44,201 nt of DNA from assembly GCF_008107625.1 (NCBI RefSeq), contig NZ_SDKK01000005.1:1-44201 (forward strand). Reading direction: 5' to 3'. This document shows, piece after piece, positions 8,856-13,687 of the stretch; position 1 is the first letter of the stretch; the number at the start of each line of letters is the position of its first letter. The translations under genes were made by a program, and so were the position numbers. The DNA is from Zoogloea oleivorans (GTDB taxonomy: Bacteria; Pseudomonadota; Gammaproteobacteria; Burkholderiales; Rhodocyclaceae). The notes below the pieces were generated by a model. That model saw only the letters and a program-made list of their open reading frames with translations, did not search any database and was not told the DNA's origin.

Positions 8856-10268
8856 TTAGTAGCGGTATTGGTCGGCCTTGTAGGGGCCTTGCTTGGGCAC
8901 GCCGATGTAGGCGGCCTGCTCGTCGGTCAGCTCGGAGAGCTGGGCGTTGAGCTTCTTGAGCTGCAGGCGGGCCACCTTCTCGTCCAGATGCTTGGGCAGC
9001 GTGTACACGCCCACCGGGTAGTCGGCGGTACGGGTGTACAGCTCGATCTGGGCGATGGTCTGGTTGGCGAAGGAGGACGACATCACGTAGGACGGGTGAC
9101 CGGTGCCGCAGCCGAGGTTAACCAGGCGACCCTTGGCCAGCAGGATGATGCGCTTGCCGTCCGGGAAGATGATGTGGTCGACCTGGGGCTTGATCTCTTC
9201 CCACTGGTACTGCTCGATCGAGGCGACGTCGATTTCGTTGTCGAAGTGGCCGATGTTGCAGACGATGGCCTGGTCCTTCATGGCGGCCATGTGGTCATGG
9301 GTGATGACGTGGAAGTTGCCGGTGGTGGTGACGAAGATGTCGGCCTTGTCGGCGGCGTACTCCATCGTGACCACGCGGTAGCCTTCCATGGCGGCTTGCA
9401 GGGCGCAGATCGGGTCGATTTCGGTGACCCACACCTGGGCCGACAGGGCACGCATGGCCTGGGCGGAACCCTTGCCCACGTCGCCGTAGCCGGCAATGAC
9501 GGCAACCTTGCCGGCGATCATCACGTCGGTGGCGCGCTTGATGCCATCGACCAGCGATTCGCGGCAGCCATACAGGTTGTCGAACTTGGACTTGGTGACC
9601 GAGTCGTTGACGTTGATGGCCGGGAACTTGAGTTCGCCGCGCTGGTGCATCTGGTACAGGCGATGCACGCCGGTGGTGGTTTCTTCGGTGACGCCCTTGA
9701 CGGCGGCCAGACGCACGGAATACCAGGTCGGGTCGATGGCCAGCTTGGCCTTGATGGCGGCGAAGAGGATGGTTTCTTCTTCGGAGCTGGGGCTGGCGAT
9801 GACGGACAGGTCCTTCTCGGCGCGGGCCCCCAGGTGCAGCAGCAGGGTCGCGTCGCCGCCGTCGTCGAGGATCATGTTGGTGTAGCCACCATCGGTCCAT
9901 TCGAAGATGCGGTGGGTGTAGTCCCAGTAGTCGGTGAGGGATTCACCCTTGACGGCGAAGACCGGGATGTTCTGCGCGGCAATGGCGGCGGCGGCGTGGT
10001 CTTGCGTCGAGAAGATGTTGCACGAGGCCCAGCGCACTTCGGCGCCGAGGGCGGTGAGCGTCTCGATCAGCACGGCGGTCTGGATGGTCATGTGCAGCGA
10101 GCCGGTGATGCGCGCGCCCTTGAGGGGCTGGGCAGCCGCGAACTCGTCGCGAATGGCCATCAGGCCGGGCATCTCGGTTTCGGCGATGCGGATTTCCTTG
10201 CGGCCCCAGTCAGACAGGGACAGGTCGGCGATGACGTAATCGGTGAACTTTTCAGCCACAGCGTTCAT
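8856..10268 (-). CDS. ahcY: Adenosylhomocysteinase (SAH hydrolase)
   Basis: AhcY reversibly hydrolyses S-adenosylhomocysteine to adenosine and homocysteine with tightly bound NAD, relieving product inhibition of methyltransferases. The 470-residue length matches the bacterial form that carries an insert relative to the eukaryotic enzyme. Visible signatures are [13 protein letters not shown] near residue 84, [11 protein letters not shown], the NAD-binding [13 protein letters not shown] at about residues 260-272, [18 protein letters not shown] and the conserved C-terminal KADQYRY. Its leader carries a SAH riboswitch (10366-10471) and a TATAAT promoter. metF follows on the same transcript. Confidence 0.98.
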
Positions 10269-10365
10269 GAGATTTCCTCGAACTTGTGGCCGGGATCTGG
10301 GGTAGTACGGGTGGGCTCACCACGTCTCCCCGTGCCCGGCACGGGTTTGCAAACAAAGCATGGAC

Positions 10366-10471
10366 GGGTGAGCGCAGTTGCTGGTGCCGGTGGAGTTGCC
10401 TCCGGTGGCACTGACATCGAGCCTGGGACACGGCGGGCATTGCACCCGGCGGCCTTGCAGCGCTCCTCGAA
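10366..10471 (-). ncRNA. SAH riboswitch upstream of ahcY-metF
   Basis: Read on the minus strand, the leader contains the hallmark elements of the SAH riboswitch class. CGAGGAGCGCTGCAA starts at 10469, a CCCAGGCTCG follows, and AACTGCGCTCAC closes the element near 10368. GAGCGC pairs with the distal GCGCTC as P1, and CGAG near the 5' end can pair with CTCG of CAGGCTCG as the pseudoknot. A further arm folds as GTGCC-GGAG-GCAA-CTCC-GGCAC with a GCAA tetraloop. SAH riboswitches turn expression on when SAH accumulates (established for the class). The expression platform is less clear: a 7-bp CCCGTGC/GCACGGG hairpin lies at 10329-10345 between aptamer and start codon. Confidence 0.93.
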
Positions 10472-10482
10472 GCAGGACGGCG

Positions 10483-10565: not shown

Positions 10566-11438
10566 TCAGTAAATCTTCGGTTCGCCGGGCGGACGGGTCT
10601 TGAAGCGGCGGTGCACCCAGTAGTACTGGGCCGGCATGGTGCGGATGCGTTCTTCGAGAAAGGCGTTCATGCGGCGGGCGTCGCCTTCGACGCTGTCACC
10701 GGGGAAGTCGGTCCACGGTTGGCCCAGCTCCACCACGTAACCTTGCCCGCCCGGCAGCATGCGGGTGATGCACGGCACCACCACGGCACCGCCCAGCTTG
10801 GCGAAGCGTGGCAGGGCGGCGAGGGTGGCGGCCTGCACGCCAAAGAAAGGCACGAACACCGATTCGTTGGGGCCGTTGTCCATGTCCGGCAGGTAGTAAA
10901 AGGGCCGGCAGTCCTTCATGGCCTTGATCGAGGCGCGAATGCTTTCGTCGCGGCGCAGCAGGATCTGGCTGCCGAAGCGGCTGCGTCCGTGGAGCAGCCA
11001 GTGGTCGATGACCGGGTCTTTCTGGCGGGCGTAGATGCTGACGCAGTCGAAGGAGGCGGCCAGCCGCGTGCCGCCGAGGTCGAGGCCAAGGAAGTGCGGG
11101 GTGAGGAGGATGACCGGCTGGCCGTCGTCGATGAGCTTTTGCAGCATGGCTTCGCCTTCGACACGCACGAGGCGGCGGATGCGTGCTTCGGGGGCAAACC
11201 AGGCGAGGCCGCGTTCGATGAGGCTGCGGCCGGCGAGGGCGAAGTGTTCTTTCGCCAGCTGGCGGCGTTCGCCGTCGGAGAGTTCGGGGAAGCACAGACG
11301 CAGGTTGGTCAGCACCACCCGACGGCGCGGAAAGATGATTCCGTACAACAGCAGGCCCAGGCCGCGGCCGATGGAGGCTTGCACGGACAGCGGCAGCCAG
11401 TGGAGCAGCCACAGCAGGGCAACGATGATTCGGCTCAT
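10566..11438 (-). CDS. LpxL/HtrB-family lipid A acyltransferase, second copy
   Basis: The 290-residue protein adds a secondary acyl chain to lipid A precursors at the inner membrane (family role). The start is the ATG at 11438 (MSRIIVALLWLLHWLP), which overlaps the upstream acyltransferase stop as ATGA. An N-terminal hydrophobic anchor covers about residues 4-30. The acyltransferase motif is LLTPHFLGLDLGG (H-x4-D type) near residue 120, followed by PDMDNGPNESVFVPFFG and the YYWVHRRFKTRP signature near the C terminus typical of LpxL/LpxM enzymes. It forms a two-gene operon with its paralogue. Chain-length specificity cannot be read. Confidence 0.9.
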   Translation of the reverse strand: MSRIIVALLWLLHWLPLSVQASIGRGLGLLLYGIIFPRRRVVLTNLRLCFPELSDGERRQLAKEHFALAGRSLIERGLAWFAPEARIRRLVRVEGEAMLQKLIDDGQPVILLTPHFLGLDLGGTRLAASFDCVSIYARQKDPVIDHWLLHGRSRFGSQILLRRDESIRASIKAMKDCRPFYYLPDMDNGPNESVFVPFFGVQAATLAALPRFAKLGGAVVVPCITRMLPGGQGYVVELGQPWTDFPGDSVEGDARRMNAFLEERIRTMPAQYYWVHRRFKTRPPGEPKIY

Positions 11439-12307
11439 TCCTGGTTTTCTCGGGTAGTGGGCGCGGGAGGTGCGCCGGAGGGGCGTTTGTAGCGGTTGTA
11501 GCCCCACAGGTACTGGGCCGGGTTCTCGCGGATCTGCGCTTCCATCTCGCGGTTGATGGCGGCGGCGCGGGCGTTGGTATCCCCTTCCAGCGGCTGCAGG
11601 GGTGGGCGCAGATGGAGGTGAAAACCCTGCCCGCCGGGGAGGCGCTCGGCCCACGCGAAAATCGTGGTGACGCCAGGCAGCTCGGTCAGGCGGGCCCCGA
11701 GGGTCATGGTGTAGGCGGGCCGTCCGAAGAAGGGCAGCCAGGCGCCTTCGCCGCCGCCGGGCACCTGGTCGGGCAGCATGCCCACGGCTTCCCGGGCACG
11801 CAGGGCCTTGATGAGGCGGCGCACGCCGCCCGTGTCGGCCGGCGCCAGGCGCATGTTGCCGCGACTGCGGCCGGCGTTGATGAGCGGCTGCAGGACGGCT
11901 TTCTTGGGGGCTCGATAGAGCACGGTGATCGGCTTGTGGCTGGAAAAGAACTGCGCGCTGATCTCGAAGCAGCCCAGGTGGGGGGTGATGAAGACGATGC
12001 CGCCGTCCCGCACTTCGGCCGCTTCGACGTGTTCCCAGCCACTGACCTTGACCACCTTTTTGAAGAGTTCATGTTGCGGGCGCAGTAGCACCCACGGCAG
12101 TTCGAGTGCCTGCTTGCCGGTCTCGCCGACTGCCTGGCGCCACACCTTGCTGGCGGTGTCGGCACCGAGGGCTTGCTCAAGGTTGGCGCGCAGGCGCCGT
12201 CGATACGTGGGTGACAGGGCGTAGGTGAGCCAGCCGGCGATAAAGCCGCAGCGTTGCAGAAGGCCAAGCGGAAGGCGGGCCAGCAGGGAGAAAATGAATG
12301 ACACCAT
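11435..12307 (-). CDS. LpxL/HtrB-family lipid A acyltransferase, first copy
   Basis: The protein has 290 residues from the ATG at 12307 (MVSFIFSLLARLPLG); an upstream in-frame TTG at 12313 is possible, and neither has a good ribosome binding site. A hydrophobic N-terminal segment (about 2-28) anchors it to the inner membrane. The catalytic H-x4-E/D motif is ITPHLGCFEI at about residues 107-116. PDQVPGGGEGAWLPFFG and the C-terminal QYLWGYNRYKRP signature match the family. The two acyltransferases differ substantially, so they probably add different secondary chains. The gene is divergent from metK; only about 55 bases separate its start from the metK riboswitch, so the promoters are back to back. 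Confidence 0.9.
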   Translation of the reverse strand: MVSFIFSLLARLPLGLLQRCGFIAGWLTYALSPTYRRRLRANLEQALGADTASKVWRQAVGETGKQALELPWVLLRPQHELFKKVVKVSGWEHVEAAEVRDGGIVFITPHLGCFEISAQFFSSHKPITVLYRAPKKAVLQPLINAGRSRGNMRLAPADTGGVRRLIKALRAREAVGMLPDQVPGGGEGAWLPFFGRPAYTMTLGARLTELPGVTTIFAWAERLPGGQGFHLHLRPPLQPLEGDTNARAAAINREMEAQIRENPAQYLWGYNRYKRPSGAPPAPTTRENQE

Positions 12308-12328
12308 CGACAATTGGGGCAGGCCGAA

Positions 12329-12356
12329 TTGACGGCCGGGGGCGCGAAGCTATAAT
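12329..12356 (+). promoter_or_regulatory. Sigma-70 promoter of metK
   Basis: TTGACG at 12329-12334 and TATAAT at 12351-12356 are separated by 16 bases, a near-consensus sigma-70 promoter. The predicted start at about 12362-12364 coincides with the first base of the riboswitch stem P1. Confidence 0.85.
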
Positions 12357-12361
12357 TGTGA

Positions 12362-12450
12362 TTCCGCCGAGTTAATCCGACAACTTGCAGGGCGGGGGCG
12401 GTTCGCAGCTTAGCTGCGGATGGGCCTAAAAAGTACTGCTAAAGCGTCGC
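12362..12450 (+). ncRNA. Candidate SAM-II-type riboswitch in the metK leader
   Basis: The leader begins with stem P1, CCGCC (12364-12368) with GGCGG (12391-12395), enclosing a loop GTTAATCCGACAACTTGCAG. This loop strongly resembles the SAM-II loop (pattern TTTAACCG...TTGCA). Downstream, CTAAAAAGTACTGCTAAAG at 12426-12444 resembles the SAM-II 3' strand (ATAAATGTAGCTAAA pattern). The H-type pseudoknot can form: GCAG 12387-12390 with CTGC 12436-12439, and CGAC 12378-12381 with GTCG 12446-12449. Between P1 and the 3' strand sits an extra hairpin, CGCAGC 12404-12409 with GCTGCG 12413-12418. SAM-II represses SAM/methionine genes when SAM is bound (class knowledge). SAM-II is best known from alphaproteobacteria, so assignment in this host is by sequence and fold reading only. 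Confidence 0.72.
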
Positions 12451-12460
12451 CGCTCCGAAG

Positions 12461-12507
12461 ATCCCCAGAGACGGCAACGCCGCCACAACTGGGGATTTTT
12501 GTTTTTT
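12461..12507 (+). terminator. Intrinsic terminator in the metK leader (attenuator)
   Basis: ATCCCCAG at 12461-12468 pairs with CTGGGGAT at 12489-12496, with an inner CGGC-AAC-GCCG hairpin, followed by TTTTGTTTTTT. It ends about 14 bases before the metK ATG, inside the transcript, so it must be conditional. CTGCGGAT at 12414-12421, part of the inserted hairpin of the candidate riboswitch, can pair with ATCCCCAG (seven of eight), giving a plausible antiterminator. Confidence 0.82.
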
Positions 12508-12520
12508 GTAGGAGCGTTTC

Positions 12521-13687
12521 ATGGCCCGTGAATTCCTTTTTACCTCTGAGTCCGTCTCCGAAGGCCATCCCGACAAGGTCGCCGACCAGATCTCCGATGC
12601 GGTGCTGGACGCCATTCTCGCCCAGGACCCGCGTGGCCGGGTGGCTTGCGAGACGCTGGTGTCCACCGGCCTGGTGGTGATTTCCGGTGAAATTACCACC
12701 AATGCCGATATCAACTACATGGATATCGCCCGCGCTACCGTGAAGCGCATCGGTTACGACGACTCCGACATCGGTTTCGACTACAAGAGCTGCGCGGTGC
12801 TCACCGCCATCAACCGCCAGTCTTCCGACATCGCCCAGGGTGTGAATGAAGGCGAAGGCCTCGACCTCGACCAGGGCGCCGGCGACCAGGGTTTGATGTT
12901 CGGTTACGCGACCAACGAGACGCCGAGCCTGATGCCCTTCCCGATCTACTACGCCCACCGCATCATGCAGCGTCAGGCGGAAGTGCGTAAGGACGGCCGT
13001 TTGCCGTGGCTGCGTCCGGACGCCAAGAGCCAGCTGACCGTGAAGTACGTGGACGGCAAGCCGGTGGCGATCGACACCGTGGTGGTGTCCACCCAGCACC
13101 ATCCGGATGTCTCCCACGCCCAGCTGTCCGAGGCGGTGATCGAGGAGATCATCAAGCCGGTGCTGCCGAAGGACATGCTGACGGCCAGCACCCGCTTCCT
13201 GATCAACCCGACCGGCCGTTTTGTCATCGGCGGCCCGAACGGCGACTGTGGCCTCACCGGGCGCAAGATCATCGTCGACACCTACGGCGGTGCGGCGCAC
13301 CACGGTGGTGGGGCGTTCTCGGGCAAGGATCCGTCGAAGGTGGACCGCTCGGCGGCCTACGCCGGCCGTTACGTGGCGAAGAACATCGTGGCCGCCGGCC
13401 TGGCCGACAAGTGCGAAGTACAGGTGGCCTACGCCATCGGCGTCGCCAAGCCGGTGAGCCTGATGGTCGAGACCTTTGGTACCGGCAAGGTGTCCGACGA
13501 GAAGATCGTTGCGCTGATCCAGGCCCACTTCGACCTGCGCCCGAAGGCCATCATCGCCAGCCTCGACCTGCTGCGTCCGATCTACTCCCGCACCGCGGCT
13601 TACGGCCACTTTGGTCGTGACGAAGCGGACTTCACCTGGGAGAACACCGACAAGGCGGCTGCGTTGCGCGCTGACGCCGGGCTCTAA
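12521..13687 (+). CDS. metK: S-adenosylmethionine synthetase
   Basis: MetK makes S-adenosylmethionine from methionine and ATP, releasing phosphate and pyrophosphate; it works as a cytoplasmic tetramer with Mg and K. The 388-residue length is standard. The N-terminal [18 protein letters not shown] (about residues 13-30), the [15 protein letters not shown] signature near residue 120, and [22 protein letters not shown] near residue 250 are all present. The ATG has GTAGGAG nine bases upstream. It is a single-gene transcript with its own promoter, candidate SAM riboswitch, leader terminator and a strong downstream terminator. Confidence 0.98.

Follow-up and report, generated by a model that had tools for sequence, protein, structure and literature searches.

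The window analysed here, the whole 44,201-nucleotide stretch of Zoogloea oleivorans DNA, carries metK behind a leader in which a promoter is followed by a pseudoknot, a hairpin with a T-run, a Shine-Dalgarno sequence and the gene (Table 1). Both promoter boxes are found at 21 of 21 Zoogloea loci, the window's own counted in, and the promoter scan places the start of transcription where an earlier note on this DNA had predicted it, at P1. A GGAG motif lies no more than 20 nt from the start codon in 52 of 64 metK leaders, and the fold of the leader gives z = -2.68 against shuffled sequences. As expected of a SAM-II riboswitch, the gene downstream belongs to methionine/SAM metabolism. The window also contains an SAH riboswitch upstream of ahcY, and with the metK leader two of its SAM-cycle genes would thus be under RNA control.

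Table 1. Features of the metK locus and its surroundings (positions in the window).
Feature	Positions	Strand	Basis or remark
ahcY	8856-10268	-	
SAH riboswitch (RF01057)	10363-10474	-	41.2 bits
Divergent neighbour gene	11435-12313		lysophospholipid/lipid A acyltransferase relative
Sigma-70-type promoter	12329-12356	+	-35 TTGACG 12329-12334, 16-nt spacer, -10 TATAAT 12351-12356; scan 11/12, shuffle mean 0.1; start at or just before P1
P1 5' strand CCGCC	12364-12368	+	pairs with 12391-12395, 5/5 Watson-Crick
Loop L1 GAGUUAA	12369-12375	+	third strand of expected triplex; G12371 = SAM-II position U10
Distal P2 5' strand CGAC	12378-12381	+	pairs with 12446-12449, 4/4
Invariant UUGC (12385-12388) plus AG	12385-12390	+	GCAG 12387-12390 pairs with CUGC 12436-12439, 4/4
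P1 3' strand GGCGG	12391-12395	+	letter check
Variable hairpin-bearing insert	12396-12433	+	length and sequence differ among relatives, many without it (alignments)
Proximal P2 3' strand and pocket GCUAAA (12438-12443)	12436-12443	+	GCTAAA in 100/100
Distal P2 3' strand GUCG	12446-12449	+	also used by alternative helix
Alternative (antiterminator/anti-sequestor) helix, 5' arm	12444-12455	+	11 pairs with 12468-12480; hairpin -15.3 kcal/mol
Anti-Shine-Dalgarno strand CGCUCC	12451-12456	+	pairs with 12511-12516, 6/6
Probable intrinsic terminator	12461-12507	+	AUCCCCAG 12461-12468 / CUGGGGAU 12489-12496, T-run to 12507; folds
Alternative helix, 3' arm	12468-12480	+	inside terminator-hairpin loop; pairing and swap test
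Shine-Dalgarno GGAGCG	12511-12516	+	window letters
metK, methionine adenosyltransferase, 388 aa	12521-13687	+	TIGR01034, 616 bits, cutoff 309

The leader forms an H-type pseudoknot at 12364-12449. A core alignment was made from 100 of 182 loci, thinned by hand, and covariation was counted on the 94 distinct cores. P1 is paired in 94/94 at four positions and in 92/94 at the fifth, and its outer pair, kept in 94/94, occurs as five pair types against a best value of 61 in 2000 shuffles. The two variable pairs of the proximal P2 (GCNN/NNGC) hold in 87/94 and 84/85, where shuffles reach at most 79 and 80. In the distal P2, the innermost pair is present in 94/94 and never varies, the second is found in 91/94, which equals the shuffle maximum (mean, 87.4), the third in 90/94 (maximum, 85), and the fourth in 53/94, which is indistinguishable from shuffles (maximum, 55). 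When the distal partner was shifted by one or two positions, at most one of three columns was well paired (93, 7 and 2; 0, 1 and 89; 0, 15 and 12; 3, 14 and 62 of 94). Both pseudoknot pairings that the earlier note had read from the letters are complete in the window, and the covariation that it had proposed to look for in related metK leaders is seen in P1, proximal P2 and distal P2.

The P3 hairpin of SAM-V sits between P1 and the P2 3' strand, and the metK element resembles SAM-V in carrying a hairpin at this place. The hairpin reported at 12404-12418 does exist, albeit as a variable insertion that many relatives lack. Its suggested function fared worse. According to that proposal, the 3' arm of the insert hairpin, CTGCGGAT, pairs with the 5' arm of the terminator as an antiterminator (12414-12421 with 12461-12468), for which seven of eight pairs are possible in the window, and inserts paired with the terminator region of their own leader do exceed shuffled inserts (-18.76 versus -15.89 kcal/mol), though in differing registers. 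However, the insert is missing from many aligned relatives, neither conservation nor covariation of the pairing was seen, and the octamer occurs at 3 of 21 Zoogloea loci, one of which is the window's own. Since swapped partners pair no worse than own ones (-19.22 versus -18.76 kcal/mol) and 437 of 500 permutations were at least as good, we rejected this antiterminator, to which almost no likelihood is left.

The loop and 3' strand had been said to fit the SAM-II pattern, and the comparison upholds this. The UU of L1, UUGC and GCUAAA correspond, in the numbering given in the available part of PMC3764141, to the SAM-II pocket positions U11, U12, U20-C23 and G42-A47. All of these letters (U11 U12 U20 U21 G22 C23 G42 C43 U44 A45 A46 A47) are kept in 100/100 aligned copies, an invariance that is partly selection, since the model used to find the copies had itself been built from copies of this kind. 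The roles of the SAM-contacting letters in SAM-II and SAM-V are taken from the portions of PMC3764141 and PMC6061858 that were accessible. This conservation also bears on the idea of a leader-peptide or protein-bound attenuator lacking a ligand pocket. While the anatomy of an attenuator and terminator would by itself leave the effector unspecified, the invariance of the pocket-like loop letters in 100/100 aligned copies speaks against such a device. By eye, the sole leader ORF noticed starts at 12420, within the non-conserved insert, and has no run of Met codons. The leader peptide was rejected on this reading, and an attenuator of this kind is highly improbable here.

Position U10 is where the element departs from the pattern. 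Completely conserved across the SAM-II set described in the available text of PMC3764141, it has an equivalent that is G in 73, T in 25, A in 1 and a gap in 1 of the 100 copies, and G in the window. The G is found in 60 of 66 metK-linked copies versus 13 of 34 others (G versus not-G, Fisher p = 4.7e-8, a value that ignores kinship and is confounded with phylogeny). Conceivably, then, the same pseudoknot could bind a ligand other than SAM, e.g., SAH, which SAM-II rejects, or another adenosyl compound, with U10 changed to G as the gene changed from metX/metZ to metK. The association of G with metK accords with this, and variant riboswitches with a changed ligand are known, such as the SAM-I-derived spermidine switch (PMC10853860, in the part seen). 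However, the equivalents of the direct SAM contacts (U11, U21, U44 and A47) are invariant in the 100 aligned copies, the regulated gene encodes SAM synthetase, and a separate SAH riboswitch stands before ahcY in the same window. Furthermore, in the SAM-V crystal structure, as described in the part of PMC6061858 at hand, U8 touches U47, the uridine pairing with the SAM adenine, and not SAM itself; by our own reading, U8 of SAM-V is the equivalent of SAM-II U10. A change of ligand is therefore unlikely. SAM is most likely the ligand, and its binding is a prediction, as are the direction of the switch and the division between transcription and translation, all of which we infer from sequence.

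The search with the SAM-II model RF00521 (SAM_alpha) that the earlier note had proposed did not match the window, either over its whole length at the gathering cutoff (36 bits) or over 12200-12700 at E<=10, and the Rfam SAM models, including RF01826 (SAM-V) and RF01726 (SAM-II long loops), likewise gave no match over 12200-12700 at E<=10. RF00521 exceeded its cutoff in 8 of 60 genomes and fell slightly short in many others; at E<=10, matches appeared in 60/60 genomes and in 13 of 14 control genomes, so that weak matches carry no meaning. At 20 of its places, the next genes that could be read by eye were metX, metZ and, once, metH. In the window's own genome, a SAM-II element before metX (NF047916) scores 29.9 bits (G000:C50:28907-28986, L044). 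Because other beta- and gammaproteobacterial SAM-II copies likewise lie near or below the cutoff of 36, Rfam may undercount SAM-II in these groups.

This raises the alternative that the metK element is an ordinary member of SAM-II that simply receives a low score from Rfam's alphaproteobacterial model. Its pseudoknot and spacing equal the RF00521 consensus, at least one metK copy reaches 21.4 bits (in G027), 25 of 100 copies keep U10, and doublet SAM-II elements with mixed platforms have already been reported (PMC9481103, in part). On the other hand, the genomes in which metK-type copies went unmatched at E<=0.5 in 8/8 scanned loci also have SAM-II elements in front of metX/metZ, with scores of up to 45 bits, and U10, the extended P2 and the platform set the metK copies apart from SAM-II as a group. 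The alternative thus deserves to be taken seriously, though we consider it rather less probable than its negation. RF00521 was discarded as a detector of metK copies, as it mainly picks other SAM-II elements, and since neither the model score nor U10 agreed with SAM-II, we did not file the element under RF00521.

We favor instead a variant standing beside SAM-II. With SAM-II, the element shares the H-type pseudoknot, the pocket of L1 UU, UUGC and GCUAAA, the 3-nt spacing to the distal helix and the expected OFF direction. It differs in having no RF00521 match, in the G at U10 in 73/100, in serving metK, in its anti-Shine-Dalgarno and alternative-helix platform, and in a proximal P2 that is two covarying pairs longer; among 63 elements of the same genomes selected by a SAM-II pattern, in which the spacer is AGC in 62, the first of these extra positions pairs in 22. 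The pocket logic, a P2 of several pairs and translational action are shared with SAM-V (RF01826) as portrayed in the available part of PMC6061858. In contrast to SAM-V, which is marine, the metK element is betaproteobacterial, has no match to RF01826 at E<=10, and sequesters the Shine-Dalgarno by a separate strand: whereas in SAM-V the Shine-Dalgarno lies inside the distal helix by the pocket, here it begins 62 nt after the pseudoknot.

A betaproteobacterial metXZ element, described with a consensus of six conserved regions (Leyn et al., 2014; PMC4239095), resembles the metK leader in combining a pseudoknot with a terminator/antiterminator idea, but serves metX/metZ, and from its description in the text seen, which does not call it SAM-II, it is very probably the ordinary SAM-II before these genes. 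A regulator of metK was sought in betaproteobacteria by the same study and, according to the part consulted, not found. Tandem SAM-II/SAM-V and some doublet SAM-II arrangements (PMC9481103, in part) have the same order as loci in our set, where in 22/100 the metK-type copy is closely preceded by a weaker match of SAM-II-like character; by eye, the first copy often has a terminator among the loci inspected. In our loci, the second place is taken by the metK-type variant, which sets them apart from those of that paper, where 44 doublets are described. Other paired arrangements were also seen. In L031, L032 and L033 (two copies in G014 and one in G009), SAM-II with a terminator precedes a metK-type element and a hairpin that ends near the Shine-Dalgarno; L031 has a Sir2-family gene (PF02146) downstream and, nearby, an int-alpA RNA match just below cutoff. 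The ten matches to our covariance model R2 in G678 (L101, L182) form five pairs with members 93-104 bases apart, i.e., tandem SAM-II-like leaders, and an intermediate between SAM-II and the metK type (L047, 1900-1966, minus strand; 47.1 bits with R2) stands in tandem behind SAM-II.

Downstream of the pseudoknot, two helices were examined in 64 of the 66 metK-linked copies, leaving out one for which no start was found and one whose start is 258 nt away. The alternative helix has the general form GCGU-GCC, in the P2 3' strand, with GGC-ACGC or a counterpart in the next hairpin. In partner-swap tests, which ignore the relatedness of the leaders, own arms of this helix averaged -11.68 kcal/mol, swapped arms -10.53 and shuffled arms -9.26, and those of the anti-Shine-Dalgarno helix -10.67, -7.62 and -5.91 kcal/mol, with 0 of 2000 permutations as good in either case. 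The same test applied to SAM-II elements (10 nt after GCUAAA) revealed no such helix (own, -8.97; swapped, -9.17; 825 of 1000 permutations at least equal). In family f8, the strand is GUCGCAG and faces CUGCGAC or a near match in 6/6; its pairing is -12.20 within the group versus -9.10 (f8 strands with main-group arms) and -9.26 across groups, the only case in which the alternative helix shows clear compensation at the level of a lineage. Family f49 has GCGUU (GCGUUC) in place of GCGUC, and L1 follows with GAAC or GAGC in 6/6. It was dropped as a co-change of both alternative-helix partners, because its downstream arm, AACGC, is shared by 13 leaders of other families and is not specific to it; main-group strands gave -12.56 with f49 arms but a weaker -11.27 with arms of their own group. 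No preference for own arms was seen in the six leaders whose strand reads GCGTCT. Comparison among relatives thus supports the pseudoknot and, by their advantage over swapped partners, both downstream helices.

Coupling to a terminator, as the earlier note had it, is supported for this genus. By regular expression, 20 of 21 Zoogloea loci retain the T-run, and the hairpin at 12461-12507 is probably an intrinsic terminator that Zoogloea adds to the platform, even though a strict scan of the window for terminators with loops of 3-8 did not list it. Of the 64 metK leaders, 15 have a terminator-like hairpin and 49 have none; the window's family, with 22 leaders in the set, accounts for 11 of the 15. 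Therefore, termination is not the general output, and most relatives, lacking a terminator, probably act on translation. The note had further held that SAM-II usually acts on translation and that a terminator-coupled version would be unusual. Its suspicion of a variant stands, but those premises do not: PMC2258182 and PMC6061858, in the parts available, describe SAM-II as mostly terminator-linked, and terminator-coupled SAM-II as common. SAM-II of Sinorhizobium meliloti, for example, is predicted to terminate metZ transcription, and RNA levels fit (PMC9373788, as excerpted).

The arrangement of these helices suggests how the leader might switch. The alternative helix crosses the terminator and the anti-Shine-Dalgarno helix and so is mutually exclusive with them, and the pseudoknot uses the same GCGUC strand, so that ligand binding should block the alternative helix. 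When SAM is present, the pseudoknot would be locked through L1 and both P2 segments, leaving the distal P2 3' strand (GCGUC) unavailable; the strand after it would pair with the Shine-Dalgarno, and in Zoogloea the nested hairpin would also terminate transcription. Without SAM, GCGU-GCCG-CUC would pair with GAG-CGGC-ACGC before the 3' arm of the terminator is made, and the alternative helix would then block both the terminator and the anti-Shine-Dalgarno helix, allowing metK to be transcribed and translated. In folds of the window, blocking the P2 strand weakened the pre-terminator structure from -16.5 to -6.4 kcal/mol. Since the terminator is the more stable structure once both strands are made and outcompetes the alternative helix, the switch must be kinetic and would depend on co-transcriptional timing. 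We consider it likely that the leader is an OFF switch repressed by SAM and, within the SAM-II/SAM-V superfamily, a distinct, mainly betaproteobacterial metK subtype. A bolder proposal would make the metK elements a riboswitch class of their own, built on the scaffold of SAM-II, in which the change of U10 to G and the longer proximal P2 retune the ligand or affinity set point, and the pocket-adjacent strand common to the mutually exclusive pseudoknot and alternative helix, with its neighbour on the Shine-Dalgarno, lets one aptamer be read as translation control, termination or both, depending on lineage. This we regard as speculative and doubtful.

The element is widely distributed. BLAST with the leader gave matches in 38 of 60 genomes, the window's own counted in, and a single copy of the exact core pattern is present in the genome of the window; no plasmid record matched the leader. 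With R2, a covariance model built from 22 sequences with P1 as its sole helix, 147 of 399 genomes of the order matched at E<=1e-8; the 271/399 that matched at E<=0.01 include lower-scoring SAM-II elements before other genes. A class-level draw gave 102 of 274 genomes at E<=0.01, those read being mostly SAM-II before metZ-like genes, and a phylum-level draw 24 of 299 at E<=1e-6, seven of them outside the order and all of family f210. Outlying copies of this family are those of L103, G749, G753, G757, G836, G878 and G971. L103 precedes a 102-residue protein. At least 66 of the 100 aligned copies precede metK. Pattern matches in named genomes covered at least 120 stretches, and in 112 of 120 a looser motif identified the next gene as metK (among the remaining eight, the sequence of L236 ends 142 nt after the element); among 80 listed stretches, 70 precede metK by motif, and L199 and L229 were assigned to metK by eye. 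Genera with the element include Burkholderia, Ralstonia, Cupriavidus, Bordetella, Thauera and Dechloromonas.

Some metK-type copies stand before other genes. At L048, L082, L216, L241 and L251, and also at L092 and L123, some of them in tandem behind SAM-II, the gene downstream encodes a protein of ~100 residues that starts with MYDC or MFDC; in L251, this protein had no match in Pfam or NCBIfam. A MATE efflux gene follows the short protein in L048 (PF01554) and, by eye, in L082, L216, L241 and L251, and the combination of element, short protein and MATE gene is possibly a SAM-controlled exporter operon. In L174 (G041), a metK-type element precedes, by eye, the start of a metZ-like gene, with an RF00521 match ~40 bases upstream.

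Judged by comparison of sequences, the element is a widespread variant within the SAM-II/SAM-V superfamily, of metK type and with a platform of its own, and would work like SAM-II. Among open-licence papers, we found no report of it. SAM synthetase is central to metabolism, and its control in betaproteobacteria was left open by the comparative study noted above (PMC4239095, in the part available); the element would fill this gap for a metK regulator in many betaproteobacterial genera. It may also provide a natural test of the part that U10, a single position of the pocket, plays in specificity, and of the ways in which the same aptamer can be coupled to its output, translation in most lineages and, in Zoogloea, termination as well.
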